A stretch of 64,000 nucleotides of DNA from Bryum argenteum (taxonomy: Eukaryota > Streptophyta > Bryopsida > Bryales > Bryaceae), in NCBI GenBank assembly GCA_037043015.1, contig CM073321.1, positions 27,951,010-28,015,009 of the forward strand, written 5' to 3'. Shown here one piece after another: positions 23,683 to 55,066 of the stretch (positions are counted from its first letter, which is position 1; every line of letters begins with the position of its first letter). The position numbers were made by a program, and so were the translations under genes. The notes under the pieces are model-generated. The model made no database searches, had not been told where the DNA came from, and saw only the letters and a program-made list of their open reading frames with translations.

Positions 23683-25007
23683 ATGGGTGTGACTAACCTT
23701 GTCTCACATTTGTTCCTAATTCTCTTGTTTGTTTCTTACACGCATCCTTCTTTTAAAGATGCACCGGAGCACATGCAACCGATCAGAACGGCACGCTATG
23801 TCGGGTTCTGGCTTCATACCTTTGTCCTGAACATGCCTGATAGCAGTCAAGTCCCAACAGTATATATTGTGAAGCCGTCAATTGGAGGTTGAGGGTTCGT
23901 GACGAAGAAGCTTAGAAACGACATGGCGAAAATAGAACCAGTAATTACCAATGCAAATGCAACGTCTCAAACTATGAGTAGCAGCATGGAAGTATTGCAC
24001 TTAGATGCATCGAGGGACAGATGGCCATACGTTTTCCTTGTCATACATGAAGATCCACTCTTAGAATATCTGAAAGACCGATTATATGGAGTGCGCTTTC
24101 ATGTCCGGAAGTTAGATGTCACACTTTCGCTTAGTTGTAAAGGGAGGGGGTTAGATATTCACGATGATCCTAAAGTAACTCGTGCTTCTCTCAATTAAGC
24201 GTGCGCACTTATGCTTGAGGCCCAATACAAATCTGCAGTTGGTGGCGATGACCCTCCTCCTAATGTTGGGACGCCTACCAAGAAAAGAAAGTCCCCAATG
24301 AAGCTGAAAATGGACTCAAGGAAGCCCGCAGTAGTCAAGAAGAGAAAAACGGACTCTATGAAGGGTTTGACGATTGAAGAGGCCGTGACGTTTAGAGGTA
24401 AGGAGAAGAAACTCCTCACACGTGAAAGTAGAGAAGAAATTAGGGCGCTCTACGACAAGGAATTCAGCACCCTGTACATTCATTGTCAGGCATTTGGGGG
24501 GGGGGGACTAGAGCATTTCAGAGACTTCCAGGAACCGACCTCCTGGTACATTTCTCAAAGTTGCACTTTGCAGAACCGGGGAAGATGTTGTACCGTGGGC
24601 TTGTACTGGATAGGATTCATCAATTGGTGATGGCACTAGACATTGTCGCTGATATTAGTCTCGTAAGAGCTCAAGTGGTTGTCTTACCGATTAGGGCCTT
24701 CAATCAACATGACATTCCGACTTACTTCAAGCGTGAACCAGAGGAGAACGAGATTAGTGCGGATACGCACTTCTTTATTATTGGCGGCCAACACACGGTT
24801 GAAGCTCATAAGAAAGTCGTGGTTAGTCCAAAACATATTTTGGACCTGAAGAAGAATGTACAATTGGACTTCGCCATCATACCTGTGTGGTGCCATGAAT
24901 TCAACGATGAGAAGTTGTTGTATCTATTCCCGAATCCTGAATCAAAACGTTGTTGGAGAGAGGACTTAACTTACAATCAACAACTATTTAACGCTCGTGT
25001 CGCATGA
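23683..25007 (+). pseudogene. ParB-like gene of a mobile element, 5' part
   Basis: One frame runs from 23683 to about 24500 with two in-frame stops. It includes RTARYVGFWLHTFVLNM and a Lys/Arg-rich linker (PTKKRKSPMK, VVKKRKTDSMK) that could be a nuclear localisation signal. At a ten-G run (24497-24506) the frame shifts, and an open 174-codon piece follows (24483-25007). It contains GLVLDRIHQLVMALDI, ISADTHFFIIGGQHTVEAHK and VQLDFAIIPVWCHEF, and ends NQQLFNARVA. The GGQHT motif after a beta strand recalls the DGQHR-type loop of ParB/sulfiredoxin-fold proteins; that assignment is from memory and weak. Text after the stop (KNCGSPPPALCGRIHSDKFK) is still coding-like. Confidence 0.5.
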
Positions 25008-25429
25008 AAGAATTGCGGAAGTCCTCCTCCTGCTCTCTGTGGACGCATACACTCCGACAAGTTTAAGATTAGAGAATTCTCCTATGTGCAGCTCATTTTT
25101 AATCGATGGAATTATAAGTGCATTTGAACATGGGGCGATCCTCCCATGCCTTAACAATGTTCATCTGATTCTCAAGTTTGTAGGTGTTCGTTATAAGTTC
25201 TGCTTTGTAATAAATATCGTACTGTCGGCCTGCCGTGATCGGAAGGTGTGATACCTCAACGTCTAAAACGTCATGGTGAGGGCCATTGGACCTAAAAGTC
25301 ACTTTAAATATGTGTTCATCAGTGTATATGTGCGTCATGGGTGGACCCCCCGATGCTTCGTATGTTAGATCAATGTACTTGTGCTTTCACTGCAGACTGA
25401 ATTTATACCTCAACTGAAAGCCATATTTG

Positions 25430-25717
25430 CAGGTAAAGGTACTCAGCGAAAAATGCCGGCGACGGAAGAGTTCCACTGCTGTATCTTGAGGAGCCCGACT
25501 TCGAGGCTTGGGTTCAAATTGAAAAAGAGTAGTTGGCAGGGAGGCTTCCTGATCAATGGGATAGGGAATCGGCTCCACATGAAGTCGTAGCTGTTTATCC
25601 AAGGAAGCCGTACGTCAAAAACAACTTGAAAATACTCCATGGGATGCAAAATGAAGATGTCTCTACAATGGCTCAATTTATCACAAAGAAGAGCGTGTAG
25701 AGCACGAACTCCATGCC
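25430..25717 (+). pseudogene. ParB-like gene, segment up to the hAT insertion
   Basis: The frame reads GDGRVPLLYLEEPDFEAWVQ, LAGRLPDQWDRESAPHEVVA, KPYVKNNLKILHGMQNED and FITKKSV, then STNSMP at the insertion point, with two stops. The text continues in frame after the hAT as EPATVMSIVDFCN when one copy of the 8-bp duplication is removed. The 25126-25430 stretch before it is probably an intron and carries two more GATC-type sites, near 25130 and 25345. Confidence 0.5.
25710..25717. other. Left target-site duplication of the hAT
   Basis: TCCATGCC here is repeated exactly at 39723-39730, the 8-bp duplication length expected of hAT transposons. Confidence 0.93.
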
Positions 25718-25899
25718 CAAGGTTGTCATATCGGGCGTGTTGAGGCAATCGGGCGGACAAAATGGACGTACGAGTTGTCCCGGACGGACGGGCGTGCCCG
25801 CCCACCTTGATAGTAGGAGGCGTGTAATTTTTTCATGGGTAAGAAACTTTGCAGTAAAAAGCCACGTACGATGTGACGTGTAAGTCCATTGTGGCGTCA

Positions 25900-26360
25900 G
25901 GGCCGGTGAAATTGTGCCATGGCGGGTGAACTTTTGTTAGGGGGGGTGAACATTTTAGGGGACGGGTGAACTTTAGAGGGGGCGGGTGAACTTTAGAGGG
26001 GGGGGTGAACTTTGGTGGCAGGGCGGGTGAGGGAGGAGGCGGGGCGGGGGGGGGGGCGGGGAAGGGGGTAGGGGACGGGAGGGGGGGGGGTAGGGCGTGG
26101 GAGGGGGGGGGGGGGGGGGTAGGGCGGGGGGGGGGGTAGGGGGGGAGGGGGTAGGGCGTAGGAGGGGGTAGGGCGGGGGGGGGGGGAGGTAGGGCGTAGG
26201 AGGAGGGGTAGGGCGTGGGAGGGGGGGGTAGGGCAAGGGAAGGGGTTAGAGATGGTAAGGTAGGTTAGGGGGGGTAAGGGGATAAGGTGGGTTAGGAGGG
26301 GGTAGGGGGGGGTAAAGGGGGAGTAAGGGGTGGTTTAGGGGAGGGGTATGGGTGGTTGCT
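25900..26360 (+). repeat. G-rich subterminal block of the hAT
   Basis: Repeats of GGCGGGTGAACTTTAGAGGG (about 25920-26020) grade into long runs of G with GGTAGGG units up to about 26340. At the opposite end (39280-39510) the + strand is C-rich with CACCCGCCCTAACCCC units, so the two ends are inverted in composition. The Pro-rich minus-strand frame here is not a gene. Confidence 0.85.
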
Positions 26361-26441
26361 TTGTTTTCATTTATTTCTTTTTTAAATTTTTTAAAAAGTT
26401 TTTTTTTTTTTTTTTTTTGAGAATTTCTTTAAATAGAAATA

Positions 26442-26612
26442 TCGTAGTATTTACAAACTGATTCATGCATAGGTTGAGTGGTATTTGGCAAGGTATGCAT
26501 ATAAGCGGTTGGAAGAGTGAGGAGGGGTGGGAATAAGTAAATATGTGCACTCAAATCAAAACAATGCAATTAAATATGTCATATGACGAAGTACACATGC
26601 ATCGATAAGAGA
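26442..26612 (-). repeat. 3' flank module A (shared with the kinase-like gene)
   Basis: About 170 bp downstream of the transposase gene matches 37176-37316 downstream of the kinase-like gene in the same orientation. Shared words include GATTCATGCATAGGTTGAGT, GGTATTTGGCA, AAATATGTGCAC, CAAAACAATGCAATTAAATA and TGTCATATGA. It may serve as a shared terminator or 3' UTR, or may be a subterminal repeat. Confidence 0.85.
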
Positions 26613-27825
26613 AATTGCCTTATTTCATACATAAGGCGAATGTAATGTAGTAAAAAGTAGAAAGCATGAATAATAATATGATATAATATAATTCATAGTG
26701 AATAACGATACAACGTAGATATAAGGAAATTATATATATTCCCACAACACATAATCTGAACTTCTCTATTTTTTTATAAACTTATGCACTATAATAGACT
26801 AATAATAGTGTCTAATAAAGACTACAATAATGATGAGAAGTTCTAAAATACCCGAATAGATAATATAAGTCCATTCTACTTATTAAAACGATTTGATTGC
26901 CGCACCCTTATAGTGGATGTACCCTCCATGTTAGGATCTCGGATCAGGTCTTGGATAACAACGTTATCATCATCTGGCGCCTCATCGCACTGTGGGTTAC
27001 CATCATCGTCGTCGTCGTCGTTGTTGCCACGTTCAATATCATCGTTGTTGTCGCTACCACTTGAAGAACAAGTAGACTCATTGCGGAGAAGGGCTATTTT
27101 TTCGCCGTATAGGTTTTCCTCAAGTCTGATAACCTTGTGTCTCTTTGCTCTGGGACACTCCCCATCCAAATTCACCGGCGGTCCTCTAGGAACAACAAAA
27201 GCTGGTGTTGATGAAGTGCGACCAGAAACATATGTGTCCACGAATGGTTCAATTACCGTGTTTGGGTTCCTCCCCCCTATTCCTAATGAAGAACGTCTGC
27301 TTGGCCTGGAAGAGAAGACATCGCCAACATTCTGTCCCCCTCCATCTACAGTGTCTGCAATGCCTCTAGGCCGTATCCGTTTTGTAGTGGATGTTGAGCC
27401 TCCAAACCCACTGCGGTCTTTGTTTCCGCTAGGAGTGTTAGTTCCCCCACGTCCTCTAGCTCCATTTCTTCCACGTGCTTGGTGGTATTGTCCCATTGGA
27501 TGATGGGTACCGGGCCTAGGAATAATAGGAGGCCTCCCACGGGACCCATCAGATTGGAAAGCTCTTGCACCAGCATTTGTTGCTCCTCCACTAGTATTTG
27601 GCGAAGGTGTATTTAGCCCAGAGACTGTTCTAGAGATCGGAATATCCGCGTGTATTGGGTCAACATCATCGGTCAATTTGAATGCATCGTGAATCCTACT
27701 GAGATTCGGATCAAGACATTGGGGCGCAGCAACGGGTGTAATAGTTCTCCCAATCCCTCCCAATCTTGATGCATTTGGGCTATTTCCCACTTCTCGCAGG
27801 GCCACATCTTCAAAACAATTTACAA

Positions 27826-28842
27826 TCATTGTATAGGTATTGGGAATTCCAATATTACCAATTGTGCCATCTTCTCCCTCGTTCTGCTCATTGTCCTCAT
27901 TGTTTCCGAAAGTGGGTGGTTGTAGTTAACATCATGAGCGGGTATGGTTTGATTTGCTTCACGATCTAGCCAATGATCTGAATCTTTGTATTCCGAATCC
28001 GATACTGTAATCCGCGCTTGATTGATGCCGACATCGGGGCGATTGTCTGGCGATGGAATGCGACAAGTAGGACTTGTACTCCATGCTCCAGCACCCCAAC
28101 GGATTGGCTCTTGGTCATCGTCCATTGCATCGTCTTCACCGTAATATTCTCTACTATCCTCTAGACGGTCCGCACCTTCAGCCCAGGGATCTGGATTTTG
28201 TCGGTACTCTCTACCTTCCCAATTGGCTTCCATGTCACTATCGTCCTCCTCTTCTATGAACTCTCGGTTGGGCTCATCTACAGGAACTGGGCCAAGGGCA
28301 TCTGGGTCTGAATCCTCTGAGTTGACATTGTCTTCATACCAGCGAAGTGGTTCGGGCCCTGGTCTTTTTTGTAATACACGGCCATTGGTATAGATATACA
28401 GTAATGTCTCTGCCTTTTCCGGGGCTAACCGATTTCGGCTCTTATTGTGCACAAATGAATAAGCACTCCAATTACACTCATAGGAACTAGCTGAACATGT
28501 GAGAGACAATATGCGTACCGCTATTTTGGAAAGGTAGTGATCTCCAATCTTATACCACCATTGATGGGGGACCATGTTCATTGCACGGATGTTGAAGGCA
28601 ATGTCCGGGCTATATGGCCCTGTACCTTCGTCATACTCTTGTAATTCGGATATGACGTCTTCATACTTCACACCCACCACGTCTTTTAATTTCTGAATTA
28701 CACGATATAGCGCACGGAGGGCTACGCCATCTTGCTTTAGCGCTGCATTCTCCTTGAGATATGGATTCAAGAGCTGCATAGTGAAGATCCGTAAAACACA
28801 TGGCCCTCCTCGCTTTGAATGAATCCTCCAATATTGTTGCAA
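27826..28842 (-). CDS. hAT transposase, C-terminal dimerisation region
   Basis: This 338-codon open piece contains YWRIHSKRGGPCVLRIFTMQ, LLNPYLKENAALKQ, RAMNMVPHQWWYKIGDHY, then ILSLTCSASSYECNWSAY and NRLAPEKAETLLYIYTN. That is the conserved hATC block around the S-x-E-x-N-W-S motif, followed by an acidic, Pro-rich extension. Confidence 0.75.
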   Translation of the reverse strand: MQQYWRIHSKRGGPCVLRIFTMQLLNPYLKENAALKQDGVALRALYRVIQKLKDVVGVKYEDVISELQEYDEGTGPYSPDIAFNIRAMNMVPHQWWYKIGDHYLSKIAVRILSLTCSASSYECNWSAYSFVHNKSRNRLAPEKAETLLYIYTNGRVLQKRPGPEPLRWYEDNVNSEDSDPDALGPVPVDEPNREFIEEEDDSDMEANWEGREYRQNPDPWAEGADRLEDSREYYGEDDAMDDDQEPIRWGAGAWSTSPTCRIPSPDNRPDVGINQARITVSDSEYKDSDHWLDREANQTIPAHDVNYNHPLSETMRTMSRTREKMAQLVILEFPIPIQ

Positions 28843-28912
28843 TATCTGGTCGGACGCTAAATGGTGGATCCCTGAATGAAGTCACATGTTGATGCAATCC
28901 TTGTAGTATGAG

Positions 28913-29452
28913 TCATGCCTTACCCATTGCGGGTTCTCGGCCATCAAACACGCGTGATGCTTTCAAAACCTCCTCCGTCATGAAAATGAAATTCTTGAAC
29001 CGTAGCCAGAAGGCCCAATCCTCAATGGTGCGCACGATATTGCGCATGGTGGTGGTTTCCCGCTCCCCTCCCATTCTGTCCCTCAATGTATTGGTATAGT
29101 TCTGAACTCGGGGATGGTCTTTTAGTGCCTCTAGGACAGGCTTGAGTTTGACGAGTCGGTCCATCATCAACATATTGCATGCAAAGCGCGTCTCCCCTGG
29201 CACTAGAATTGAGAGTTTAGGACTAAATTCACGAAATGTTGCCATTCTTGCATGATGGTTCCTAATATAATGGCACAACTTTCTTGCCCTCTCGATAAGG
29301 TCCTTGAAGATGTTGATCTTTGCCCAATCTTCCAATAGGAGATCCAAAGCATGAGTCATGCATCCTTGCGAGAAAATCCATGGATACTCCTCGATGATAC
29401 ATTTCATTGCTCCAAGCATGTGTGCAGCGTTATCCGTACACACTGCGCTCAC
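28913..29452 (-). CDS. hAT transposase, DUF659-like core part
   Basis: The 179-codon piece starts SAVCTDNAAHMLGAM (second candidate catalytic Asp) and continues GCMTHALDLLLEDWAKI, ETRFACNMLMMDRL and WAFWLRFKNFIFMTE. These match the order in plant hAT proteins of the DUF659 group. Confidence 0.75.
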   Translation of the reverse strand: MSAVCTDNAAHMLGAMKCIIEEYPWIFSQGCMTHALDLLLEDWAKINIFKDLIERARKLCHYIRNHHARMATFREFSPKLSILVPGETRFACNMLMMDRLVKLKPVLEALKDHPRVQNYTNTLRDRMGGERETTTMRNIVRTIEDWAFWLRFKNFIFMTEEVLKASRVFDGREPAMGKA

Positions 29453-29608
29453 ATTCTTAGGTCACACCTACTCAATGAATACTTTGAGTTTGTCTGCTAT
29501 ATACGTCGCAGATTTTGTTTGCCCAGTGGTGTCAATGCTTCCTAGAAATACATCTCCAGGTGGGCACGTCATCATCACATTCATGAGGGGCCTACGATTA
29601 ACATCGTC

Positions 29609-30238
29609 CTAACCATCGGTGCATATGGACACCCCATACGCGGATTTTGCAAATCCAATTCTTGACTCAATCTCCTTCTCGACTTGCAATCTGCTGGGTT
29701 CTATGAGATTAGTCCTGAATTGGTGATAAGATGGAGGAACATAGTCAAACCTCGCCATGGAAGTAGCTAAAACCGCTTCAATAAAAAACGGGTTCCTGGC
29801 CACGTTGAATGGGATATTTGCGTTATAGAAACAATCTGCCCACTTTTCATCCAATTCTCTTCTCTTCGCGGTGTTCAAAGATTCCTCCATGCTACGTTGG
29901 CGTACTGCTACGGACCTCGTAGAATTTGATGCGCCTCGGGTAGCTGACATGGAGTGAGGATTCTCCTGTCTCTCTACCACGCACGCATCCCGGCCTCCTC
30001 TATGAGGACTTCCACCCCTCACTCCAACCCCTGTGTTTGTATCAACACCTACATGGCATGAAGAACCACTGAGGATTCCCTTGGAGGGACCATCTGTAGT
30101 AGAATCTCCACCGTACATGTCTTCATCACTCATTCTGGCGGGAACTATGCCCCCACAATTTGCAAACTTGCTGCGAACACGATGCAGTATAAGGGAACAC
30201 ACACTCTTCTCTGATTTCGGCATGTAGCCTAGGTGCAT
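29609..30238 (-). CDS. hAT transposase, post-BED region
   Basis: From the end of the BED finger (HLGYMPKSEKSVC) it runs through a low-complexity linker to WADCFYNANIPFNVARNPFF, YVPPSYHQFRTNLIE and ESRIGFAKSAYGVSICTDG. The last Asp is the first candidate catalytic residue. A stop in place of the expected Trp follows. Confidence 0.75.
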   Translation of the reverse strand: MHLGYMPKSEKSVCSLILHRVRSKFANCGGIVPARMSDEDMYGGDSTTDGPSKGILSGSSCHVGVDTNTGVGVRGGSPHRGGRDACVVERQENPHSMSATRGASNSTRSVAVRQRSMEESLNTAKRRELDEKWADCFYNANIPFNVARNPFFIEAVLATSMARFDYVPPSYHQFRTNLIEPSRLQVEKEIESRIGFAKSAYGVSICTDG

Positions 30239-30494
30239 GAATGCTCGAATTCGTTTGTAGGTGAATTTTTTGTTGCAAAAAAAACAAGTAATGTTCCTAT
30301 CACCATGAAATTTATACCACGAATTCTACTCTCTTGTTGTCCTCCGTTGGCTCCCCATCGCATTCGAGCCTAAAGGATGAAGGCTCTAGTGGCCAATTTG
30401 GTATATCATGTAAACCCTCGTAATAATTCTTTGCTCTATTCTCTTGCGTGAACCAATTTTGACATTAGCTCCGTTGTCAGCTAGTGCTGGTCAC

Positions 30495-30670
30495 CATCGT
30501 TGTAGAAAAAAAATTTGAAAACCTCCTCCCTATGTGCTCAAACGCCCTTTATCAATCCCCAATCCAACCCTCACAAAGAGAAGTGAATCTTGGGAGCTAG
30601 GAGGGGCAGGTTACAATTCAGAAGTTCGCCCCTTATATAGTGGTTGGACCCCCCATGGTACATGGATGGG
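30495..30670 (-). promoter_or_regulatory. Promoter/leader module P1 (transposase gene)
   Basis: This block matches 36251-36410 nearly throughout: shared words are ATCGTTGTAGAAAA, GCTCAAACGCCCTT, CAATCCCCAATCCAACCCTC and AGTGAATCTTGGGAGCTAGG. It ends at an ATG (30496-30494) equivalent to the start codon of the GWED gene. A TATA box, TATATAAG (minus strand, 30639-30632), lies about 138 bp before that ATG. The ATG opens only six codons, so the transposase probably uses 30358 or the leader is spliced. Confidence 0.75.
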
Positions 30671-31276
30671 AAGATGGAGATTTCTATGGGAGGAGGGGCG
30701 GGTTAGGGGGGAGAGGGGCGGGTTACGGGGGTGAGGGGCGACCATCGGGGAGGAGGACGGGTTACGGGGGGAGAAGGGGGAAGGGGGGAGGGTGACGAGA
30801 GTAGGGGTGTAGAGGAGGGGGCGGGGAAAGGGGGGTGGGGAAGGGGGCGAGGAAATAGGGGGCGAGGAAATAGGGGCGAGGAAATAGGGGCGAGGAAATA
30901 GGGGGCGAGGAAATAGGGGGGCGGGGGAAGGGGGGCAGGGGAAGGGGAAGGGGAGGGCAGGGGAAGGGGAGGGCAGGGGAAGGGGGGGGCAGGGGAAGGG
31001 GGGGCGGGGGAAGAGGAGGGGTAGAGTGAGAGATAAAGGGGGGGTAGAGGGAGGGATAAGGAGGGGTAGAGGGAGGGATAAGGAGGGGTAGAGGGAGGGA
31101 TAAGGAGGGGTAGAGGGAGGGATAAGGGGGGGTAGGGGGATGGATAAAGGGGGGGGTAGGGGGGATAAGGGTGAGGGAGGTGGGATAGGAGAGGGGGTAA
31201 GAGGGAGTAAGGAGGGTTGCTGCGTTTTTTAAATTTTGTTTAAAAATTTTTTAATTTTTTAAAATAAAATGTTATT

Positions 31277-31700
31277 TGAAGAGGAATGAAATAAACATAA
31301 CACTACCCACCAGTATATTCTCTAGTCTTAATATAAATTTTGATCCTAAAATCAAATATATGATAAAACCATTAGAATGATAAATTTATTTGTAATATAG
31401 TATTGGAGAAAAGAATGAAATAAACATAGAACTACCCACCATTATATCCTTCAGTCTTAATATAAATAGTAAGCGTAGAATCAAATATATGGTTAAACAA
31501 TTAGGATGATAGATTTATTTGTAATATAGTATTGGGAAGAAGATTGAAATAAACATAATACTACCCACCAGTATATTCTTTAGTCTTAATATAAATAGTA
31601 AGCGTAAAATCAAATATATGGTTAAACAATTAGGATGATAGATTTATTTGTAATATAGTATTGGGAAGAAGAATGAAAAAACATAATAGAAGGTGGGATT
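31277..31700. repeat. 128-bp tandem repeat, about 3.3 copies
   Basis: Copies start near 31277, 31405, 31533 and 31661 (partial). Conserved words are AATGAAATAAACATA, CTACCCACCA, GTCTTAATATAAAT and GATTTATTTGTAATATAGTA. It is AT-rich with no frame. Confidence 0.9.
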
Positions 31701-31879
31701 GGAGAGAAATAGCACACATTTTAAGATGATCATTTTTTTGGGGATGTGGTAGCTAGACTTTGAAATAGAGGGGGGAATTGGTTTGTAGTGGGGCAAATTT
31801 GAATAAGAGGGGGACGTATAAAAACTTTAATTCTCTCTTTTCTTGGATCCCCTTGGCTCCTTCTTCCACGTACCGAATA

Positions 31880-33560
31880 TTTTTAAGGTAATGAAGTCCA
31901 AACACTCCCTCATTAAAGCCGGCATTTGGACACCCCCGGTTATAGTGAGAAATGTTTGGATTTCCAATGATTGGATTGACCATCATTCCACTCCTCTTCC
32001 ACTTCCTCCCCTTCTCTCCTCTTCCCTCCCCTTCTCTCCCCACTCCTCCCTTTCTTTTCTTCTCTTCCCCCCTCACCCGCCCCCTCATCCTCACCCCCCC
32101 CCTCTCACCCTCACCCCCCCCCTCTCACCCTCACCCCCCCTCACCCCACCCTCATCCTCACCCCCCCTCACACTCCTCTCACCCTCACCCTCACTCCTCT
32201 GACTCCACCTTACCTCCTCCGCCCTACCCCACGTTACCCGCCCCTACCCCCCGGCACCCGCCCTACCCCCCCCATTACCCGCCCTACCTCCCGGCACCCG
32301 CCCCTACCCCCCCCCTACCCGCCCCCCCCCCCCCACCCTCACTCCCCCACCCTCACCCTCCTCTCACCCTCACCCCCTCTCACCTTCATCTCCCCTCACC
32401 CTCACCTCCCCTCACCCCACCCTCATCCTCACCCCCGTCACCGCCTCACACTCACTCCCCTCAATCCCCTTACCTCCTTTGCCCTACCTCCTCCCAGACC
32501 CACCCTACCCCCTCGTTACCCGCCCGCCCTACCCTCCCGCACCCACCCTACCCCCTCGTTACCCGCCCAACCCCCCAATACCCGCCCTACCCCCACCATG
32601 TTACTCCCCCTCCCCCCTCGTAACCCGCCCCCCCCTCTCACCCACCTCACGTAGTTTTCTGAAAATTTTTGCAAAGGTTTTTGTCATCTCTCTCATCAAT
32701 CTTATGTTTTGCAAACAAGCATCATAAATGAGATAAGCAAATCCAAACATTCCCTCACTTAACCCGCCCTCTCACCTCCCCCTCCCCCTTACTCTCACCC
32801 CCCCACTCACTCTCACCCCCCCTCACCCTCACCCCCCCTCACCCTCACCCCCCCCTCACCCTCACCCCCCCTCACCCTCTCTCATCCCCTCACCCTCACT
32901 CTCCCATCACTCCCCCGTACCCCCTCCGCCCCCCCCTGCCCGCCCTACCCTCCCTATACCCGCCCGCCCTTGCACCCGCCCGCCTCCCTATACCCGCCCC
33001 CGCCCCCGGCACCCGCCCGCCCCCCGGCACCCGCCCCGCCCTCCCTATACCCGCCCGCCCCCGGCACCCGCCCCCGCCCTCCCTATACCCGCCCCGCCCC
33101 TTACTACCCGCCCTCCCCCATGGTACCCACCTCTATCACCTTAATACCCACCCCTACCCCCCCGCACACCGCCCCGCCCCGTAACCCACTCCTCCCCCTA
33201 ACTCCCCCCCTCCCTCCCCCCTCCCTCCCGTAACCCGCCCCTCTCTTCTCACCTACCCCACATAGTTTTGTGAAAAAGTTTGCGAAGGTTTTTCCCATCT
33301 CTCTCGCCAATCTTATGTTTTGCAAAAAAACATCATTAATAGAATAAGCAAATTCAAACATTTCCTCACTAAAGCCGGGATTCGGAGTATCCCGCATATA
33401 GAAGGGGAATGTTTGGATTTGCAATGATTAGATTGACCATCCCTCCACTCCTCTTCTCCTTCCTCCCCTTCTCTCCTCTTCCCTCCCCTTCTCTCCCCAC
33501 TCCTCCCTTTCATTTCTTCTCCTCCCCTCTCCACCCCCCCTTCACCCGCCCCTTCCACCT
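31880..33560. repeat. C-rich region with a duplicated ~200-bp block
   Basis: 31880-32090 and 33340-33560 are direct repeats (CAAACA.TCCCTCA.TAAAGCC, AATGTTTGGATTT.CAATGAT, GATTGACCAT, TCCCCTTCTCTCCTCTTCCC). 32645-32760 and 33245-33365 are another direct pair (AATCTTATGTTTTGCAAA). Between them are long runs of CACCC, TACCC and CCCGCCC. The Pro-rich frames here are not genes. Confidence 0.85.
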
Positions 33561-34172
33561 CACCCTCATTCCCCCTCACCCTCACTTCCCCTCTCTCTCC
33601 CCTCACTTTGGATTGACATCTCCTACCCGTATGTTTATTTTTTTATTGTCCTATCATGTTCATAAGATATTTATTAATTGTAACAAGATTTTAAATTATT
33701 TTTTCTCCCACTTAACTATTTATCAAGCTAACCATACAATGACTCCATGATAATTAGCATTCACATGATCATATGATTATTAACACCTGCATAGAGTGTG
33801 CCAACAAGTTTGCAAAAGAAAAGCATATTTCAGTAGTGTTTAACGATACAGAAAAAGAAAACTATATCTTGGTTGCTACACAACTACAAAAATCCACAAT
33901 TATTTCTCATCCATCGCTGCACTGCTTGGGCCGGCCTCGGCATCATTCGTATCCTCCGGCAAATCTTCACCCCCGCCCAATTGAAGTCTACGAACTGCTG
34001 ATTGAGTCCTCGCAGGCCCGTCTTCTTCAAGAATATCTCTCGGGAATAGCGATTGTTGCATGGCTCAAAGCATGTGTCCGGTTTGAGGACTATGCTGTTC
34101 CATCAGAAAATCAATGCTTCGATGGTGTAAAAGGTCTGTCCATTCGGATTTATCTGTTGCCTTGTTCATCTC

Positions 34173-34970
34173 CTAATCGCGGTCGGAACGCTCTTCCGAC
34201 GAATACATCATTCCATCTGACTTCCACCTTAGTCCTTCTGGATGAATCCCAAATCGAAACTCCTTGTGCGCTTCGTCCCAATACCCGCTGTAAACCTGGT
34301 AGAAGAAGTTTCGCTTGCCATTGGCATTTGAGACATTTGATGGAATTAAATGATGGGACGCCCTCGTAATTGCCTTCGTATCCTTTTGCCAGCCGAATTC
34401 CAGGGCAGCCAACTGCTTCTCTATAGAAGTGCAAGACAATTTCCAACTCCATACCAAGTCTTCTCCCCATTTCCCTTTGTGTTTAGGACCATTGGTTTCA
34501 TTATACTCCCAATGCGGTGGCATGTAATCTTCTAATTCAAAAAGGTTGTACAAGCGCTTGTGGAAGGGAGATTTACATAGTGGACATCGTCGTCGAACAA
34601 CCATGAAGCCAATCAGGCAAATCGGATGAAACATGTGGCGGCAAGTGCCTACGCAAAATCCCCCTTCAGGTCCAAAGGGGTTGCAAGACATCGCACAATT
34701 TTCACCATTCGTCACGAACGTTGCTAGTGCAGGCCACAGTTTGGCTGCTTAATTGATGTTCATCATGTTTTCAAAATCCCACTCGCACGGGACCCAATCA
34801 ATTGTTTCATCCGGTTTTTTTGGCAATTTGTCCGAAAACATCTCGTCTACAATTGCCCATGATGACAAACCAAATACCTGCTCTTGATTATGATCCTTCC
34901 ATGTCCTATCAATCTTCCTCAACTCCTCAGCTATTTGGTCACCCTTGGCGATGGATAAAATGCATGTCAA
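34173..34970 (-). CDS. GWED/RING gene, RING-H2 piece
   Basis: One frame with a single TAA between KPDETIDWVPCEWDFENM and AAKLWPALATFVTNGENC. The Cys/His order C-x3-C-R-H-x2-F-H-x2-C, then R-C-P-L-C, fits a RING-H2 finger whose first Cys pair is less certain (NCAMSC). It is followed by HKRLYNLFELEDYMPPHWEY, mirrored by HERFYEMFNLRTYMPPSCEH at about 57.5 kb. Confidence 0.6.
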
Positions 34971-35041
34971 CTTCCACTAATAGTATTGCTCAGCCATCTG
35001 ATTCATTCGACTCTTCAAGACCTCATTATCTCGTCAAACAT

Positions 35042-36010
35042 CTACCATATCAACTTCAAGGGGTGTTGGAGGCGACCTAATACCTCATTATCTCGTCGAA
35101 CATCTACCAAATCAACTTCAAGGGGTGTTGCACGCGAGCCTAATCCTTCGTTGAAATCTGCATTATCGAATGCCAAGGAGTCAAGCACACTTCCTATGAC
35201 CAATCCGTTTGCACTAGTCGATGTACTAGGTCGTGTTTGTGATGTAGAGGCCCCCTTCCCCTTTGCCATGGCCTCCTCAAGCTCCATGATACGTCGTTGC
35301 TTGGATGAGATCTCGTCGCTAGCTCTCCGCATGTCCTCTTTCAGCCGTTGATTCTCTTCCTTCAAGAGTTGATTTTCTCCCATCAATTGCTGAATCTGGC
35401 CTTCTCTTGTATCAAAATACTCCATCTCGACAGACAAATCTACCGGTGGAATTTCATCCGGCACGCCCCCATCCACAACAACCTCCACTTCCTGGGGCAC
35501 AATGTTTCCACCAACTGCATGAACCATCTCCACATCTACTATGCCGGGAAGTAGCTGCACCGGAACTGGTTGCATTACTTGGGCCAATGAAGCCATGGGC
35601 ATAGGCTCTAATGATCGAGCTAGCGTCTTCCGCTTATTCCTTGCCATCATTTTGCGTCGAGGTAAAACTATCTTGCGGGAGCCATCGGAGTCCGAATCAA
35701 GCGGGGAGTCAGACATATGGTTATGAGGGTCCAATTCCGTAGGTCTGTCGGCCAAGAGAAACCACCCAGGATCCTCTACCGCCCGAGTTTCAAAGCCAAG
35801 GAAACCATTTTGTACTCGTGGTGCTCGAGCCTTGCCTTCTAAACCCTGCAGAGTAGACCACCCGAACCTCTTCTTTAAAATGATCTCCACATGAACGCCG
35901 CGCACTAAATATAACCTGACTTGGATCTTATTTGGTAACTTCGTGGAGTAAAGGAGTTGGTAAATTTGAAGACATCGGGAAAGGTACTCCGGGTAGGTGA
36001 AGTTGCGCAA
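35042..36010 (-). CDS. GWED/RING gene, coiled-coil piece
   Basis: A 322-codon open piece. The first 60 residues are the end of the GWED domain (CLQIYQLLYSTKLPNKIQVR...). Then comes an acidic Ser/Asp linker with a basic stretch KMMARNKRKTLARS and a hydrophobic/Pro region. A heptad coiled coil follows (about residues 205-255, DTREGQIQQLMGENQLLKEE onward). The stop is a frame end rather than the gene end. Confidence 0.55.
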   Translation of the reverse strand: MRNFTYPEYLSRCLQIYQLLYSTKLPNKIQVRLYLVRGVHVEIILKKRFGWSTLQGLEGKARAPRVQNGFLGFETRAVEDPGWFLLADRPTELDPHNHMSDSPLDSDSDGSRKIVLPRRKMMARNKRKTLARSLEPMPMASLAQVMQPVPVQLLPGIVDVEMVHAVGGNIVPQEVEVVVDGGVPDEIPPVDLSVEMEYFDTREGQIQQLMGENQLLKEENQRLKEDMRRASDEISSKQRRIMELEEAMAKGKGASTSQTRPSTSTSANGLVIGSVLDSLAFDNADFNEGLGSRATPLEVDLVDVRRDNEVLGRLQHPLKLIW

Positions 36011-36249
36011 ATTGGCCTTCTGCTTCTCAAGTGTAAAACATGGCGTTCAGGCTGGAAGGATTTGTCGATGTGGCACCACTCAATGTATTGCTTTGCATGG
36101 TCAAAATCCCATGGGTCAGCCACATCTTCCCAGCCTCTGAATGCCAATTTTAACGGATTATTTAACACATGATGGCGGGCCCGCTGTTATTTTCCTTGTT
36201 GCACTCGTTCTTTGTCTTTTTCTTCCTTGCGGATCGCACCTCGTGTCGC

Positions 36250-36412
36250 CATCGTTGTAGAAAAGAAATTCTAAAACCTCCCCAAATATGCTCAAACGCC
36301 CTTCTCCAATCCCCAATCCAACCCTCACGAAGACAAGTGAATCTTGGGAGCTAGGAAGGGCGGGTTATAAATGAGGAGTCCGCCTCTTATAAATTGGTTG
36401 GACACCCCCCCC
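36250..36412 (-). promoter_or_regulatory. Promoter/leader module P2 (GWED/RING gene)
   Basis: This block is homologous to 30495-30670. The TATA box TTTATAAG (minus strand, about 36394-36387) lies about 136 bp before the ATG at 36252, almost the same distance as in module P1. The two genes probably share regulation. Confidence 0.75.
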
Positions 36413-36419
36413 AACCGAC

Positions 36420-36768
36420 CCTAACATCAAGCCAGGGGGGGCGAGGGGGGGCTAGGACGGAGGCGGTGGGGGGCGGGGAAGGGGGCAGGCGGGGTGGGGG
36501 TAGGGGGGGAGGCGGCGGGCGGCGCGGTGGTGGCGGGGGGGGGGGGGGGTTAGGCGAGGCGAGCGGCGGGAGGGGAGGGAGGGGCGGGCGGGCGGGCGGT
36601 GGTAGGGCGGGGGCGGGGAGGGTAGGGGGGGGCGAGGGGGGCAGAGGGTCAGGGCGGGGGGGGGGCGGAGGGTCGGGCGGGGGGCGAGGGGGGTTAGGGG
36701 CGGATTAGAAGAGGTAGCGGGTGTTAGAGGGGGTAGAGGGGGTAGGGAGGGTAGGGGTAGGGGGGAAG
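36420..36768 (+). repeat. G-rich low-complexity block
   Basis: Runs of G with GGCGGG, GGGTAGGG and GGCGAGG units; quadruplex formation is likely. The Gly/Arg-rich frame (36394-36708) is composition only. Confidence 0.85.
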
Positions 36769-36826
36769 GGTTTTAGGGTTTAGGGTTTAGGGTTTAGGGT
36801 TTTAGGGTTTAGGGTTTAGGGTTAGA
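36769..36826 (+). repeat. Interstitial TTTAGGG telomere-type repeat
   Basis: About eight consecutive TTTAGGG units, two with an extra T, lie in the G-rich block between the GWED and kinase-like genes. TTTAGGG is the Arabidopsis-type telomere unit, supporting a green-lineage source. Confidence 0.92.
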
Positions 36827-37097
36827 GGGAGTAGGGTAGTTGGTATATATTTTATTTAGTTTAAACTTTCTTTTTTAATCTTTTCTTAAATTTTTAAAAA
36901 AATTTTAAATTTTTTTTAAAAAGTTTTTTACAATTTTTTTTAGGGGCGGGGAGAGGTGGGGAGGTTAGGGAGCGGGAGTGGAGGGGGTAGGGGCAGGGTA
37001 GAGGGGTTAGGAGAAGGATTAAGGGATATGGGGGGGACTAAGGGGGTAGCAAGCGTTTTTTTTTTTTTTTTTTTTTTTGACTTTTTGTTTTATTTTT

Positions 37098-37098
37098 A

Positions 37099-37160
<62 letters not shown>
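37098..37160. repeat. (AT)n microsatellite
   Basis: About 30 AT dinucleotides follow a run of more than 20 T at 37054-37078. Confidence 0.95.
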
Positions 37161-37163
<3 letters not shown>

Positions 37164-37175
37164 TTTTAAATTTTT

Positions 37176-37316
37176 TCGTGGTATTTAAAGAGCGATTCAT
37201 GCATAGGTTGAGTGGTATTTGGCAGGGTATGGAACCAATAAATATGTGCACCCAACTCAAAACAATGCAATTAAATATGTCATATGAAAATGTACAAATG
37301 CATCGAATATGAGAAG
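37176..37316 (-). repeat. 3' flank module B (copy of module A)
   Basis: Matches 26442-26612 as described there. It lies about 115 bp beyond the stop of the kinase-like gene, as module A lies about 260 bp beyond the stop of the transposase. Confidence 0.85.
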
Positions 37317-37429
37317 TTGATGCGTATATTATATGTATGTGCACAAATGGGGAGTACATATAGTATTGTAATTATCCATGCAATCCTTCTACATACAATA
37401 GGCACACGCTAACTTTGAAGACCGCTAAA

Positions 37430-38233
37430 CTAAATAGCTGAATTACGGAAACAACACATGGGCATGGTCCAATTAAATGGATAGTTTTCCGAGGCCTCTT
37501 TAACATCGGACACGGTCAACCTTTTGGACACGTTCGGGTCCTGGAGGGCTTTTAATTGGAAACTGAGGTGCTCGTGATTCATGGCGCGGTCTCTGCGGTG
37601 TGGCATAAAGTACTTCATATCGTACTCTTCTTGCCAAATGCGTTGTGCTAACCACCCGGCGGAGAATGCATCGGCTGCCTTGGAATATATATGTTTGCAT
37701 TCCATTACCTCAAGGGGATTGTCAGAACCGCATGGACCATACAAAAACCATAATTCCGGTGCCACAAATTTTCGCCGTTTGCGTTCTTCATTCAAGTCCT
37801 CTAGCTTTGCAAATCCATACTTGGATGGCGCTTGTTCCACCACTCGACTTAAAATCCCCCAATCACAAAGCCCGATGTAAACCGTATCTGATTTCCAATC
37901 ATCGAAATGCAATAGAACATTGGTTGGAGTAATGTCGTTGTGTAGATAATTTTGTTCATGACACTTTTCCACAATGACAAGCAACAACAATGCCAAGTCA
38001 AGTCGTCGTTTACGGAATGTTACAACCCAACGTAGTTGAATATCGGATAGCCCTGAGTTCCGCTCTTTTCGAATGTCGTCGTATTCCAAGGGCTTTGGGA
38101 TTTTCCGATTGATATGGATGTCAAAATCTTTGAAGCTACTTCCATCCACCATAGCGAAAATCCATCCATCTAGGATGCAAGTACGATAGTCTGATGATTC
38201 CAGGGTGCTTTGCTGGACATCCACCCGCCTCAT
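37430..38233 (-). CDS. Kinase-like gene, C-lobe piece
   Basis: The 267-codon piece begins in a shifted frame, then reads VDGSSFKDFDIHINRK, RRLDLALLLLVIVEKCHEQN, YLHNDITPTNVLLHFDDWK, YIGLCDWGILSRVVEQAPSK and RKFVAPELWFLYGP. The helices after APE include FSAGWLAQRIWQEEYDMKYF. It ends at a stop at 37430. Confidence 0.65.
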   Translation of the reverse strand: MRRVDVQQSTLESSDYRTCILDGWIFAMVDGSSFKDFDIHINRKIPKPLEYDDIRKERNSGLSDIQLRWVVTFRKRRLDLALLLLVIVEKCHEQNYLHNDITPTNVLLHFDDWKSDTVYIGLCDWGILSRVVEQAPSKYGFAKLEDLNEERKRRKFVAPELWFLYGPCGSDNPLEVMECKHIYSKAADAFSAGWLAQRIWQEEYDMKYFMPHRRDRAMNHEHLSFQLKALQDPNVSKRLTVSDVKEASENYPFNWTMPMCCFRNSAI

Positions 38234-38813
38234 TTACGATTGCCATGCGCTTCTCCCTCTCGTTGTTCACATTCGTCAATTGTTTACGCGCGAATGGAAT
38301 CCAACTAGGAATATGTTGAAGCTTTGTAAACACCACCTTAGTAACCTTGCCATATCCACCTTGGATACGTTGTCCTGGAATAGATACCACCGTAACGGTT
38401 GATTCTAGCCACTTGAAAGTTCCACTGTTGCAATGCGACATAACAACATCCTCGGCTTTTGATTTCCATCTCTCATTCCTCTTCCCATGAGCTTTCGAGA
38501 AGGATTGACCAAAACTTTTCACTAAATCTAGCTTTGAAACTAATTCCTCATCTTCAGTTGTCCATTTGCTCTTGTCTGTCAATTTCTTCCCCGAAATATA
38601 CGTCCAGGCGTCTACGGTGTTGGTAGTCAACTCTACCACTCTGAGGTCCAACCATGCACCATGGTCGTAGAAGTTGGTCCAATCACAAAGTTTGTAATTA
38701 TTTTCAAAACAACGCTCTAGGTATTGGTGAAAGATCGTGACACAAATTGTGGTATCCTTCCTTATTCGCCCCAATGTAAGACCTATGCAAATCTGGCCTA
38801 GTTCGTATCTCAT
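38136..38813 (-). CDS. Kinase-like gene, central and N-lobe piece
   Basis: The 225-codon piece covers the unknown middle domain and the kinase N-lobe (RIQGGYGKVTKVVFTKLQHI, PFARKQLTNVNNEREKRM, CPAKHPGIIRLSYLHPRW). It aligns with GGHGLVRKVKILGVDHVPTN and NHPGIIKFWALHTRTFEAYS in the paralogue at 55-56.2 kb. Confidence 0.6.
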   Translation of the reverse strand: MRYELGQICIGLTLGRIRKDTTICVTIFHQYLERCFENNYKLCDWTNFYDHGAWLDLRVVELTTNTVDAWTYISGKKLTDKSKWTTEDEELVSKLDLVKSFGQSFSKAHGKRNERWKSKAEDVVMSHCNSGTFKWLESTVTVVSIPGQRIQGGYGKVTKVVFTKLQHIPSWIPFARKQLTNVNNEREKRMAIVNEAGGCPAKHPGIIRLSYLHPRWMDFRYGGWK

Positions 38814-39145
38814 AGATATTTAAACCACTCCGTTCGAGCAAATTCGAGATACTCCTCGGTTGGCATAAGTAGTGTCTCTTCCTCCTGTAGCAAAATCGAA
38901 TTGTTCTTTTTTGACCCCTTACTTTTTTTCTTTTTTCCCTTTTTTTTCCGTGATCCCGAGGAAGAAGGGTTTGTAGATTTTGTCTCCTTTGAAATTTCCT
39001 CTGTTTCCTCAGGACGGTCAAGGGGGGTTTCCAAATCTTGATTTCCGTGTCGCATACTCAAACCTTGGCTCCCTTCACCCTCCATTTCAAATGTGAGAAA
39101 AAACGGCAAAAACTCCTCCATCGTGCTGAAAAAACACCCTGCCAA
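38810..39145 (-). CDS. Kinase-like gene, N-terminal piece
   Basis: It begins MAGCFFSTMEEFLPFF with several possible starts (39145, 39121, and others downstream). An acidic/basic low-complexity region and EEYLEFARTEWFKYL follow, where it overlaps the next frame by four bases. Confidence 0.5.
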   Translation of the reverse strand: MAGCFFSTMEEFLPFFLTFEMEGEGSQGLSMRHGNQDLETPLDRPEETEEISKETKSTNPSSSGSRKKKGKKKKSKGSKKNNSILLQEEETLLMPTEEYLEFARTEWFKYL

Positions 39146-39279
39146 GTGCCCACACTAACTCAATGAAGAAGTAGTGCTTGGCAACTAGCGGAGTGAGGTG
39201 AATAATGAATCAACTTGGCTTTTATAGGGGAGGGGAGTAGAGGCACTTGGAGTGTGGAAAAGTAAAAGGAGGGTGGGCC

Positions 39280-39510
39280 CAACCCCACCTCCCCCCTTTT
39301 CCTCCTCTTCTCCCGCCCTGGCCCCCCCGCCCTCGCCTTGGCCCCCCCCCGGCCCCCGCCCGGCCTGGCCCCCCCCCCCCCGCGCCTCCCCCCGCCCCGC
39401 CCGCCCCGCCCCCCCCCCGACCCCCCCCCCACCCGCACCCGCCCGCCCCCTCCCCGCCCCCTAAACCCCTCACCCGCCCTAACCCCCTCACCCGCCCCTA
39501 ACCCGTTTCA
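39280..39510 (+). repeat. C-rich subterminal block of the hAT
   Basis: Runs of C with CCCGCCC and CACCCGCCCTAACCCC units, the inverted counterpart of 25900-26360. The Gly- and Pro-rich frames are not genes. Confidence 0.85.
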
Positions 39511-39722
39511 CCCGCCCTGTCCTTAGACTACGTGGCGCGTACGTGGCGTGTACGTGGCGGCCAAGTGGCTTGGTTTTTACCCAAACCCTTGCCACGTCCT
39601 TGTTTTTTTACCTAAATTAAAAGTCAACAGAGGTTTGATCGTATCGGGCGAGCGAGAGCTCTATCGGACGGACAAGGCGGACGGACGGGCGGGCCGCCTG
39701 CCCCCCCGGTATGACAACCTTG

Positions 39723-39730
39723 TCCATGCC
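39723..39730. other. Right target-site duplication of the hAT
   Basis: Second copy of TCCATGCC. The ParB-like reading frame continues from here. Confidence 0.93.
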
Positions 39731-41151
39731 TGAACCTGCGACAGTGATGTCTATAGTTGACTTCTGCAACACGGAGAAGAGGTTACGAGTCTGGAAGAAT
39801 GAACTCATGTATCTGTTGAAGAACATACCTCTCTCAAGCAAGAAACCGAAGTACATTTCTTACGATGCTAGGATTGGGACATGTTTGAGCGTGAGAAGGG
39901 TATTGGTCACAGTCTCATGATGTCTCTACTTGACAAAGTTCATTCATCATCAAAGGGAGAGGATTTTCTTAAACTTCGCACAAATAACTACGTGAAGAAT
40001 CCCAAATACAGTAACCTTCCTGCGAACATCAAGACTCTCAGTCTGTCTTATACTTCCTTCAAAGAGGCTCGTGTAGAACAGAGTCTAGAAGAATTCTTCA
40101 GCCGAACATACAAGTGCCTTAGTTTTGATTAGTTCAGGGGAGATCTAAATTCTTGTATCCAATTACAAATAACAAGAACTTGGATAGATAACACAGATCT
40201 CAAGCTAATGATATTTTGTTTCCGCTTCACCAAAGTTGAAGGCAAGAGTAAGGCTAGATTGATGGAGGGTAAATGACTTATTGGCATTTTTGATGTCTGC
40301 GAAGAGTTCAACGTGAAGAAGCGCATCATTTGTGTACGAGCGGGAATCGTTGTGACGGACCTTGACGGGATGGTGGAAGTCGTGAAGGAGGTTCAATCGC
40401 GGTCAACAAGACTGAATTTGCAACCTTGGGACTACCACGTAGTTCACTACATTCCGCAACCAGATGATGATTTCCCCCCATGCACCATCAAAGAATCCTA
40501 TTGTGCATACGTTGTATTTCTCTTCGCCAAGAACCCCAAAATGCCAAGACGCGCGAGCTTTGACAACTAGATGATGACAAAGAAACGGGCTTTAGAGTCA
40601 TCTTTGATCCCAACATATTAAGCAAGAATCTGGAAGAAGGATGCTGCGGACCAAAAGTGGCGACTTCCTCAAAAGCCGTCCTTTAATCGGAGCATTGCAT
40701 CGCAATTGCTCAGCTCTTTCATTAAGGAGGGTGTTGTCTTCGTCAACCTGCATGGTGGTCCCAACATCACAAATATTGCATTGATAAGTATGTAAATTCC
40801 ATTCTTGGCTACACTGATTTGGTTCTTTTGTTATTTCTCCCTTGACTTTGATTGTTCTAGTATGGGGCGATTGACCAAAGATTTATTGTTCATCTTGCTC
40901 AGAGAAACAATGCGACTGTACTGGAGTTGGTGGACCACCCCGCAATGATGGATGAGGCTAGTCGTCTTGCAAGATCCATGTGGGATGACATCGTCAAAGA
41001 GGCAAGCGCAGAGACTAGCAGACCTGAAGTGCAAACCACTGGTACTACAAGGCGAAAGCACACTAAGGTGGAACACTTAGTACGTTTTAAATTCACTACT
41101 CGAGGGGTAGCCAACTTCAAGGGCCAATTTAGGCTAGATCCCAATCTTTAA
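39723..41151 (+). pseudogene. ParB-like gene, 3' part
   Basis: The text continues SMPEPATVMSIVDFCNTEKR, RVWKNELMYLLKNIP. After one shift it reads GHSLMMSLLDKVHSSSKGED, YVKNPKYSNLPANIKTLSLS and VEQSLEEFFSRTYKC. After two stops it reads FNVKKRIICVRAGIVVTDLD, WDYHVVHYIPQPDDDF and SYCAYVVFLFAKNP. A 73-bp intron is likely at 40788-40860 (GTATGT...GTTCTAG), followed by YGAIDQRFIVHLAQRNNATV, MMDEASRLARSMWDDIVKEA and the stop at 41151. The Gly/Arg/Asp content of the middle part resembles no family I can name. About five disruptions show this gene is dead apart from the hAT insertion. Confidence 0.5.
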
Positions 41152-41560
41152 GTACTAATTTTATTTGAGGCGATGATGTTAATACTTATGAATATTACGA
41201 TTTCATTGTACTCCTCTTCAAAATTCAAAGGGCACAATTACAAATTTGTACTTTTTCACCTTTTTCAGAGTACACTCGCACCTGCCAAAAAATTACAAAA
41301 GTACAAAGTTTGCCTTGAATTAAGGAAGATAGTACAAATTCACACATGAATAATGTAAATACATGCATATAGCCTTCAAAAGCACACTAAGCATGTAAGT
41401 AGATCTTTTTTGCTCATGGTAATTTTTACAGTCAAAAAGCTAGAATTGGATTTGAGTGGAATTTAGTGAAAAATGATCCAAACTTTTTTTTTTTTTTTTG
41501 CACATCCTCTCTGACTTGAGTACAAAAGGATGGTAGAGAGGTACTTCTTTAGAAATCATA
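41152..41560. repeat. GTAC-dense AT-rich segment
   Basis: About seven GTAC words occur within 410 bp, mostly as TTGTACT or AGTACAA in alternating orientation, and several more follow to about 41740. No gene is present. Similar density occurs inside the 600-bp element at 4.9-5.5 kb and in the intron at 45.85-46.32 kb. Confidence 0.6.
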
Positions 41561-53304: not shown

Positions 53305-53412
53305 CTGCTGGTCGGGTGTCGACTGGTCGAGTGTCGAAGGGTCGAGTGTCGACTGGTCGAGTGTGGACTGGGCGGGTGTCGACTGGTCGAGTGTCGACTA
53401 GTCGGGTGTCGA
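53305..53412. repeat. 15-bp minisatellite in the gypsy element
   Basis: About seven units like GGTCGAGTGTCGACT, giving a Ser/Thr/Asp/Pro repeat in the encoded protein. A comparable Val-Asp-Pro-Thr repeat lies at about 52.2-52.35 kb. Confidence 0.8.
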
Positions 53413-55029: not shown

Positions 55030-55066
55030 GTGAAGGTTGTTTTTCTACTATACGAGATGCCATCCC

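Follow-up and report, generated by a model that had tools for sequence, protein, structure and literature searches.

To our knowledge, few plant DNA transposons keep conserved accessory genes. In Arabidopsis, the Mutator-like VANDAL elements carry short family-specific motifs, dense in their noncoding intervals, that are described as targets of VANC proteins (PMC5735166). Fungal DNA transposons with TET/JBP genes, one group of which is hAT, include TET-bearing IS3EU families in which a kinase lies beside the transposase in a fixed order (PMC12730594), and Helitrons encode viral-tegument-like deubiquitinases proposed to help transposition (PMC9741609). ToxhAT/ToxTA of wheat-pathogenic fungi is now placed with Tc1/mariner by its authors, who report a TA duplication and an element that is probably non-autonomous and present in a single copy (PMC12506042). 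Here we investigated a hAT element within a 64,000-bp stretch of the genome of the moss Bryum argenteum (the window; positions 27951010-28015009 of contig C1, CM073321.1). We show, with high confidence, that this element is a degenerate member of a large hAT transposon family with conserved accessory genes, one for a GWED-coiled coil-RING-H2 protein and one for a kinase-like protein, and that the gene set predates the divergence of two element clades, between which protein identity is now roughly 35-50%.

The element is 14,005 bp long, occupies window positions 25718-39722, and is bounded by perfect 13-bp inverted ends and an 8-bp target-site duplication:

25710-25717: target-site duplication, left copy (TCCATGCC), from flank comparison and the empty site
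25718-25730, plus strand: left 13-bp terminal inverted repeat CAAGGTTGTCATA, from the window match and genome-wide enrichment
39710-39722, minus strand: right 13-bp terminal inverted repeat, from the window match
39723-39730: target-site duplication, right copy (TCCATGCC), from flank comparison and the empty site

The 13-mer CAAGGTTGTCATA has exactly two mismatch-free matches in the window, at 25718 (+) and 39710 (-), and a third match carries 2 mismatches. The octamer TCCATGCC adjoins both ends; its window count of 4, where 2.2 are expected, is not significant in itself, and it gains its significance from its exact placement beside both inverted ends. The original prediction that these termini and the duplication fix the boundaries is therefore exact to the base in the window. 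Across the genome searched (258.8 Mb in 25 contigs), CAAGGTTGTCATA occurred 282+294 times, against 11+3 for the reversed control. Many of the 100 places listed are pairs approximately 327 bp apart, that is, miniature derivatives, and one such pair (L003) bounds a miniature element flanked by an 8-bp duplication of its own.

An empty site was sought with a 300-bp query in which both flanks were joined with a single TCCATGCC. This query found 32 matches in the genome, two of which were the window's own halves, while 30 crossed the junction without an insert; 27 of these, at 80-86% identity, extended as far as the query's 3' end, and the remaining three were partial (81, 84 and 67% identity). These uninterrupted matches indicate that the empty site is real, which establishes the insertion and its boundaries, and that the interrupted 'host gene' is itself a repeat family. 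The earlier claim that a disrupted host gene continues in frame across the site thus stood only in part: the joined reading frame does cross, yet it meets 2 stops in the left flank, one immediately ahead of the junction, and the supposed host gene is repetitive. Of at least 30 other places of this repeat family (window 24000-25709 and 39731-41160), 25 lie on C1, and one frame of the repeat holds a GGQHTVEAH stretch, which may recall ParB-type nucleases.

Inside the element lie three genes, all on the minus strand, so that the two long non-transposase genes do share the orientation of the transposase, as had been predicted:

26876-30358, minus strand: hAT transposase gene (DUF659, Dimer_Tnp_hAT), interrupted by two frameshifts and several in-frame stops; boundaries approximate, with the start codon inferred from the copy on contig C3 and from the sequence
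34104-36252, minus strand: GWED-coiled coil-RING-H2 gene, frameshifted and with stops; start codon read from the sequence
37430-39085, minus strand: serine/threonine-kinase-like gene, frameshifted, with HND and DWG motifs present; start codon read from the sequence

The transposase matched DUF659 (PF04937, 3e-11) and the C-terminal dimerisation region Dimer_Tnp_hAT (PF05699, 1.3e-6), both above the Pfam cut-offs. The RING (1.4e-4) and Pkinase (1.7e-6) matches of the window copy were below Pfam's own cut-offs, and these two assignments are supported by family alignments. The window element is a degenerate copy, and all three genes carry stops and/or frameshifts: the transposase has 4 stops in 302 aligned codons and aligns in three pieces, that is, with two frameshifts; the RING gene also aligns to the C3 copy in three pieces; and the kinase gene is spread over two overlapping frames. 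We found no tyrosine-recombinase captain (DUF3435) in 10 scanned open reading frames (ORFs), 7 of them within the element, and no TET/JBP match among those 7; Rfam returned nothing in the window, and NCBIfam no family above cut-off for any of the four proteins given.

To place this copy in its family, we searched the genome with the three proteins, which gave at least 128 transposase, 148 kinase and 150 RING matches (best candidates scored). Clade-1 RING genes were defined by more than 52% identity after exon pieces were merged (at least 65 genes), and neighbours were sought within 25 kb. Among the 65 listed, a kinase was found near 51, a transposase near 43 and both near 39; the other 14 had no kinase in the kinase matches listed. 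The arrangement is strongly recurrent: 43 of the 51 kinases lay on the same strand as the RING gene and 1.8-4.5 kb upstream of it (the other 8 were more distant or on the opposite strand), and 42 of the 43 transposases shared the RING gene's strand and lay downstream of it, at a distance of 5.0-6.6 kb in 26 cases; the 43rd is a clade-2 neighbour. Both genes stood on the expected side and strand for 35 of the 65 listed RING genes, bearing out the expectation of many copies with the same three genes. Nor is the cargo confined to the window copy, which was to have counted against the proposal: a complete 12.8-kb copy on another contig (C3:2458264-2471090, target-site duplication CTCACCGC) has a RING gene with a 748-codon open frame and is colinear with the window element from end to end, at 80-90% identity in the main blocks and approximately 89% in most.

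We also surveyed copies by their 163-bp right end, with the best 40 of 395 candidates scored (41 copies, two of which are adjacent and have one body in common). All three genes accompanied 14 of these ends, kinase and RING 3, RING only 5, and kinase only, transposase only, and kinase with transposase 1 each; the transposase-only case may owe its gene to a neighbour. The remaining 16 of the 41 had none of the three genes among the matches listed. That other copies of the termini might lack the genes is thus true of many ends and untrue of others, and an autonomous element accompanied by miniature derivatives lacking genes is the usual situation; the many gene-less copies are probably deleted derivatives. 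C1, which makes up 44.1 Mb of the 258.8 Mb (17%), holds 87 of the 128 transposase, 100 of the 148 kinase and 103 of the 150 RING matches listed, whereas the listed right ends are scattered over many contigs. Full elements seem to be retained on C1, which is perhaps a poorly recombining or sex chromosome.

A second clade of elements carries the same gene families at roughly 35-50% protein identity (matches at approximately 34-51%), is 19-20 kb long and has different ends; its kinase is inverted relative to clade 1, and it has extra GWED genes. Its complete copy on C1 (C1:4647573-4667388; 19,816 bp; target-site duplication ACTTATAT, terminal inverted repeat CAGGGTTGTCTTATTAGACA) has frames of 921 codons for the transposase and 513 codons for the kinase, together with a GWED-RING gene spread over two frames and three further GWED or GWED-like genes. 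Another member begins inside the window:

53823-64000, plus strand: clade-2 element, cut by the window end; it continues to C1:28023674, approximately 18.8 kb in total, with terminal inverted repeat CAGGGTTGTCTTGTTAGACA
54652-56239, minus strand: clade-2 kinase gene, its frame broken in the window copy
56673-58032, plus strand: clade-2 GWED-RING gene, in pieces
58542-59894, minus strand: clade-2 stand-alone GWED-coiled coil gene; a fold model was made of its relative on C1
62339-63528, plus strand: further clade-2 GWED-like gene, in two frames

This part is 91-95% identical to the clade-2 C1 copy over two long blocks, and its transposase, just past the window end, has 12 stops. The ends follow the hAT pattern in both clades: 8-bp duplications flank the window element, the C3 copy and the clade-2 C1 copy, the window's clade-2 copy has one that matches at 7 of 8 positions, and the short terminal inverted repeats are 13 bp and perfect in clade 1 and just under 20 bp and imperfect in clade 2. 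For a 135-bp clade-2 end, the best 40 of 266 candidates scored, the window's own included, were all 97-100% identical, from which we conclude that clade 2 moved recently.

Linkage in clade 2 could be counted only as lower bounds; for example, the window's own clade-2 RING gene is not among the matches listed. Near the 75 clade-2 RING genes listed, we found a kinase within 25 kb for 25, a transposase for 21 and both for 7. Three of these kinases and three of the transposases were clade-1 neighbours or out of place, which leaves a kinase for 22, a transposase for 18 and both for 5 in the clade-2 layout. The 22 kinases lay on the opposite strand 3.5-7.3 kb upstream of the RING gene (17 at 3.4-3.8 kb), and the 18 transposases lay downstream of it on its own strand, 13 of them at a distance of 12.0-13.1 kb. 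Counted from the 49 clade-2 transposases listed, 21 had a RING gene in the expected orientation, 13 a kinase and 6 both.

The neighbourhood of these elements holds other repeats. Beside the clade-2 element, window 49166-53397 shows a Ty3/gypsy-like polyprotein in long open frames (by eye), and a DUF7869-like protein, below the Pfam cut-off, is present at window 5294-6094 and at L071:194-892. The clade-2 C1 copy is flanked by a protein resembling window 3910-4914 (by eye), which points to a further repeat family.

Next, we examined the proteins themselves. In 18 aligned kinase sequences, K247, H360-N361-D362, N367 and D386 were invariant and G388 nearly so; these supply the VAIK-type lysine (K247 being matched to it by eye), the catalytic HxD..N residues and the DFG-type aspartate, in a DWG or DFG motif. 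The nearest solved chains were of the CDPK/CaMK type (1e-6). Among 91 kinase relatives, the two named ones were from the moss Ceratodon purpureus and from a metagenome-assembled genome labelled 'Bacilli bacterium'; against bacterial genome contigs, the kinase alignment gave only five weak, partial matches. The RING family keeps the eight C3H2C3 zinc ligands of a RING-H2 domain (C-x2-C, C-H, H-x2-C, C-x2-C) in most full-length alignment rows, zf-RING_2 was found in 10 of 15 members, and the nearest solved chain was RNF24 (E=5.6e-7). The RING-GWED protein had 17 relatives; the family alignment shows conservation of both the RING ligands and a GWED core, and the GWED domain had no significant fold or family match. 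Neither the kinase nor the RING alignment found a relative in viral contigs. For the clade-2 transposase, 53 of 54 relatives were marked DUF659 and 43 Dimer_Tnp_hAT; the named relatives of the transposase were flowering-plant proteins, with approximately 30% identity or less, and a Ceratodon protein that matched 11% of the query at 63%.

The noncoding intervals of the copies compared are packed with G/C-rich octamers that differ by clade. In the window element, these arrays and the other noncoding features are arranged as follows:

25921-26350: G-rich noncoding tandem-repeat array (GGGCGGGT and GGGTAGGG octamers), 3' of the transposase gene
30507-30654, minus strand: transposase promoter/5' leader with TATA-like box, a duplicate of 36261-36408 (82% identical)
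30690-31210: G-rich noncoding array, 5' of the transposase gene
31278-31686: 129-bp tandem repeat, 3.2 copies, between the transposase and RING genes
31951-33640: C-rich noncoding array with 22 ACCCGCCC, 11 CCCTACCC and 19 CCCTCACC
36261-36408, minus strand: RING promoter/5' leader, homologous to the transposase promoter/leader
36420-37050: G-rich noncoding array, between the RING and kinase genes
37176-37306, minus strand: kinase 3' flank, approximately 70% identical (wider flank) to the transposase 3' flank at 26442-26605
39300-39520: C-rich noncoding array, 5' of the kinase gene

The leading octamers are all or nearly all noncoding (tallied in the clade-2 C1 copy and the clade-1 window copy). 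CGGTCGCC occurs 35 times in the clade-2 C1 copy, each time in noncoding sequence, and 13 times in the window's clade-2 part, where about 0.4 or fewer are expected, and is absent from both clade-1 copies and from 39.8 kb of other window sequence. Conversely, GGGCGGGT occurs 31 and 24 times in the two clade-1 copies, once in each clade-2 sequence and 1 or 0 times elsewhere. In the clade-2 C1 copy, each of the six genes has an array cluster on its 5' side, approximately 0.9 kb away for one GWED gene, and 10 of the 20 spacings under 100 bp are 37-42 bp. None of three clade-1 octamers tested was present in the one miniature derivative examined. The 129-bp repeat is also present in several copies in the C3 element, and a short block of the plant-type telomere repeat TTTAGGG lies at 36767-36823, within the array between the RING and kinase genes.

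A single promoter/leader, with a TATA-like box, is present in duplicate, one copy 5' of the transposase gene and one 5' of the RING gene. Within an element the duplicates are 76-79% identical, whereas the same promoter is 93-95% identical between the two elements compared, and on this comparison we rejected concerted evolution of the duplicated promoters.

We then asked whether the genes have been under selection, estimating dN/dS by the Nei-Gojobori method in open segments and in broken copies. Open segments gave medians of 0.61 for the kinase (13 copies, 77 of 78 pairs, the window's own segment included although its gene is frameshifted overall) and 0.59 for the transposase (7 copies, 20 of 21 pairs). 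Because decayed kinase copies gave nearly the same value (0.60; 17 copies, 135 pairs), the argument for selection is carried by the contrast between variants common to at least two copies and private ones, which was 0.47 versus 0.85 for the kinase and 0.62 versus 0.80 for the transposase in sets that include broken copies, where the private class is driven up towards 1 by frameshifted stretches, which are frequent among the transposases. This is as expected if the genes are kept during transposition and decay after insertion. The RING gene gave 0.48 over 718 codons between the window and C3 copies, and clade-2 comparisons of the window with the C1 copy gave 0.52 for the kinase, 0.46 for GWED, and 0.64 and 0.39 for the N and C parts of the RING gene. 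The variants common to several copies suggest purifying selection on cargo and transposase alike. As a test of co-inheritance, over the nine elements in which both genes were retrieved, nucleotide distances of transposase and kinase correlated (r=0.58, p=0.005; p <0.03 with any one element omitted). The same correlation on codon alignments was null (r = -0.035, p = 0.42), since frameshifted codon alignments inflated some distances.

How the cargo might serve the element can be proposed only tentatively. The transposase would cut and paste the element between its inverted ends, leaving 8-bp duplications. Ubiquitin ligation by the RING protein and Ser/Thr phosphorylation by an active kinase may be directed at host factors or at the transposase, and would be predicted to keep the element expressed or mobile. 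An element-encoded DNA-binding protein would land on the octamer arrays; the GWED family, with several paralogues in clade 2, is a candidate for this protein, which might act as the VANC anti-silencing proteins do in VANDAL. On this best explanation as a whole, identity and mechanism together, we are evenly divided. A bolder version strikes us as rather doubtful: moss giant hATs would have evolved their own chromatin or anti-silencing module independently of VANDAL/VANC, with GWED proteins on clade-specific octamers in the noncoding intervals recruiting the RING ligase and the kinase to eliminate or inactivate host silencing factors, and with arrays and proteins co-evolving by clade. Several observations weigh against the best explanation. 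A dN/dS of approximately 0.6 is only moderate, open and broken kinase copies are near-equal, and broken copies contribute to the contrast between shared and private variants; one clade-2 GWED gene even gave 1.36, on only 4.5 synonymous differences. The 16 right ends with no gene among the matches listed belong here too. DNA binding by GWED is a guess, given that the domain has no significant fold or family match, and the clade-1 arrays are of very low complexity and could be the product of slippage without function.

It is possible, if somewhat doubtful, that the cargo instead regulates transposition, with the kinase and RING protein acting on the transposase (activation, turnover or copy-number limit) and the arrays serving as enhancers or transposase-binding repeats. 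The promoter/leader that the transposase and RING genes have in common fits this idea, as do the array clusters found on the 5' side of each of the six genes of the clade-2 C1 copy, and accessory proteins controlling mobility are known from other DNA transposons. The miniature derivative that we examined, however, keeps its ends without arrays, so that arrays seem unneeded in cis for movement, although they may still have a role in expression. We consider it unlikely that the cargo benefits the host, or aids the element through the plant by way of signalling or defence, as in fungal Starships. Kinases and RING proteins are typical signalling modules, and about two thirds of all listed matches lie on C1, 17% of the genome; but copies there may merely be retained, for instance if C1 recombines poorly. 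Moreover, variable cargo is typical of Starships, whereas the same gene families are present in all four copies inspected (the window and C3 copies of clade 1, the C1 and window copies of clade 2), from two anciently split clades, and no fixed host copy turned up, with no dedicated search made.

Two further explanations are largely refuted. Chance capture, in which host fragments were taken up once and spread by amplification of one copy, could account for the copies within one clade, all of which could stem from one capture. We nevertheless regard it as very unlikely: two clades whose proteins are roughly 35-50% identical have kept all three families, relatives of the kinase and RING proteins conserve the catalytic residues and the zinc ligands, and variants found in more than one copy look constrained. 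Deletion derivatives, moreover, suggest that genes can be lost. The original preference for selected cargo over capture by chance is thus supported by recurrence in many copies, by the two clades and by the constraint on shared variants. Even less probable, for the element as a whole, is a nested or composite insertion of separate kinase, RING and transposase units lying together by chance. The promoter and the 3' flank are each duplicated within the element, which could suggest such an assembly, but the series of alignments with the C3 copy is colinear from end to end, and a search of the window for further ends, made with the 13-mer only, gave a single extra match, with 2 mismatches. We prefer to explain the internal duplications by gene duplication or promoter sharing in the distant past.

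With VANC, the best-studied case of its kind, came a new understanding of how elements contend with silencing. An independent case in a bryophyte is offered by a hAT family in which RING and kinase-like proteins persist through deep divergence and, in the copies examined, clade-specific arrays lie beside the genes. Expression or removal of the cargo should be straightforward to test in a laboratory moss, and annotators could name uncharacterised kinase and RING genes that resemble parts of these transposons. A literature search, at the level of its result listings, found no hAT element with kinase and RING cargo.

Compared with known systems, the elements agree with the hAT superfamily (Ac/Tam3-like and DUF659-type plant hATs) in their 8-bp duplication, short inverted ends, DUF659 and dimerisation transposase, and miniature derivatives. 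Ordinary autonomous hATs are a few kilobases long and have one gene, whereas the elements here are 13-20 kb long with conserved multi-gene cargo. A fungal Starship would carry a DUF3435 captain, which the scanned ORFs do not contain, and the element has an 8-bp duplication and inverted ends instead. VANDAL elements, as described, are likewise plant DNA transposons with several genes, accessory proteins among their products, and their noncoding DNA also holds arrays of family-specific motifs (PMC5735166). This is a likeness of working and not of membership, as the transposase here is hAT and not Mutator-like, and the cargo is RING and kinase and not VANB/VANC; DNA binding and demethylation belong to VANC and would apply here only by analogy. 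The fungal TET/JBP elements are also DNA transposons with accessory enzymes, but theirs is an alpha-kinase while ours is a classical protein kinase, and we found no mention of a RING there (PMC12730594). Helitron deubiquitinases offer another transposon-borne enzyme of the ubiquitin system, in the account given of them, with ubiquitin removed rather than added, the domain placed within the Helitron ORF, and rolling-circle elements as carriers (PMC9741609). ToxhAT resembles the window element as a 14-kb DNA transposon with several genes, formerly called hAT (PMC12506042). We therefore rate multi-gene DNA transposons as a known kind, of which a hAT with kinase and RING cargo is a variant.

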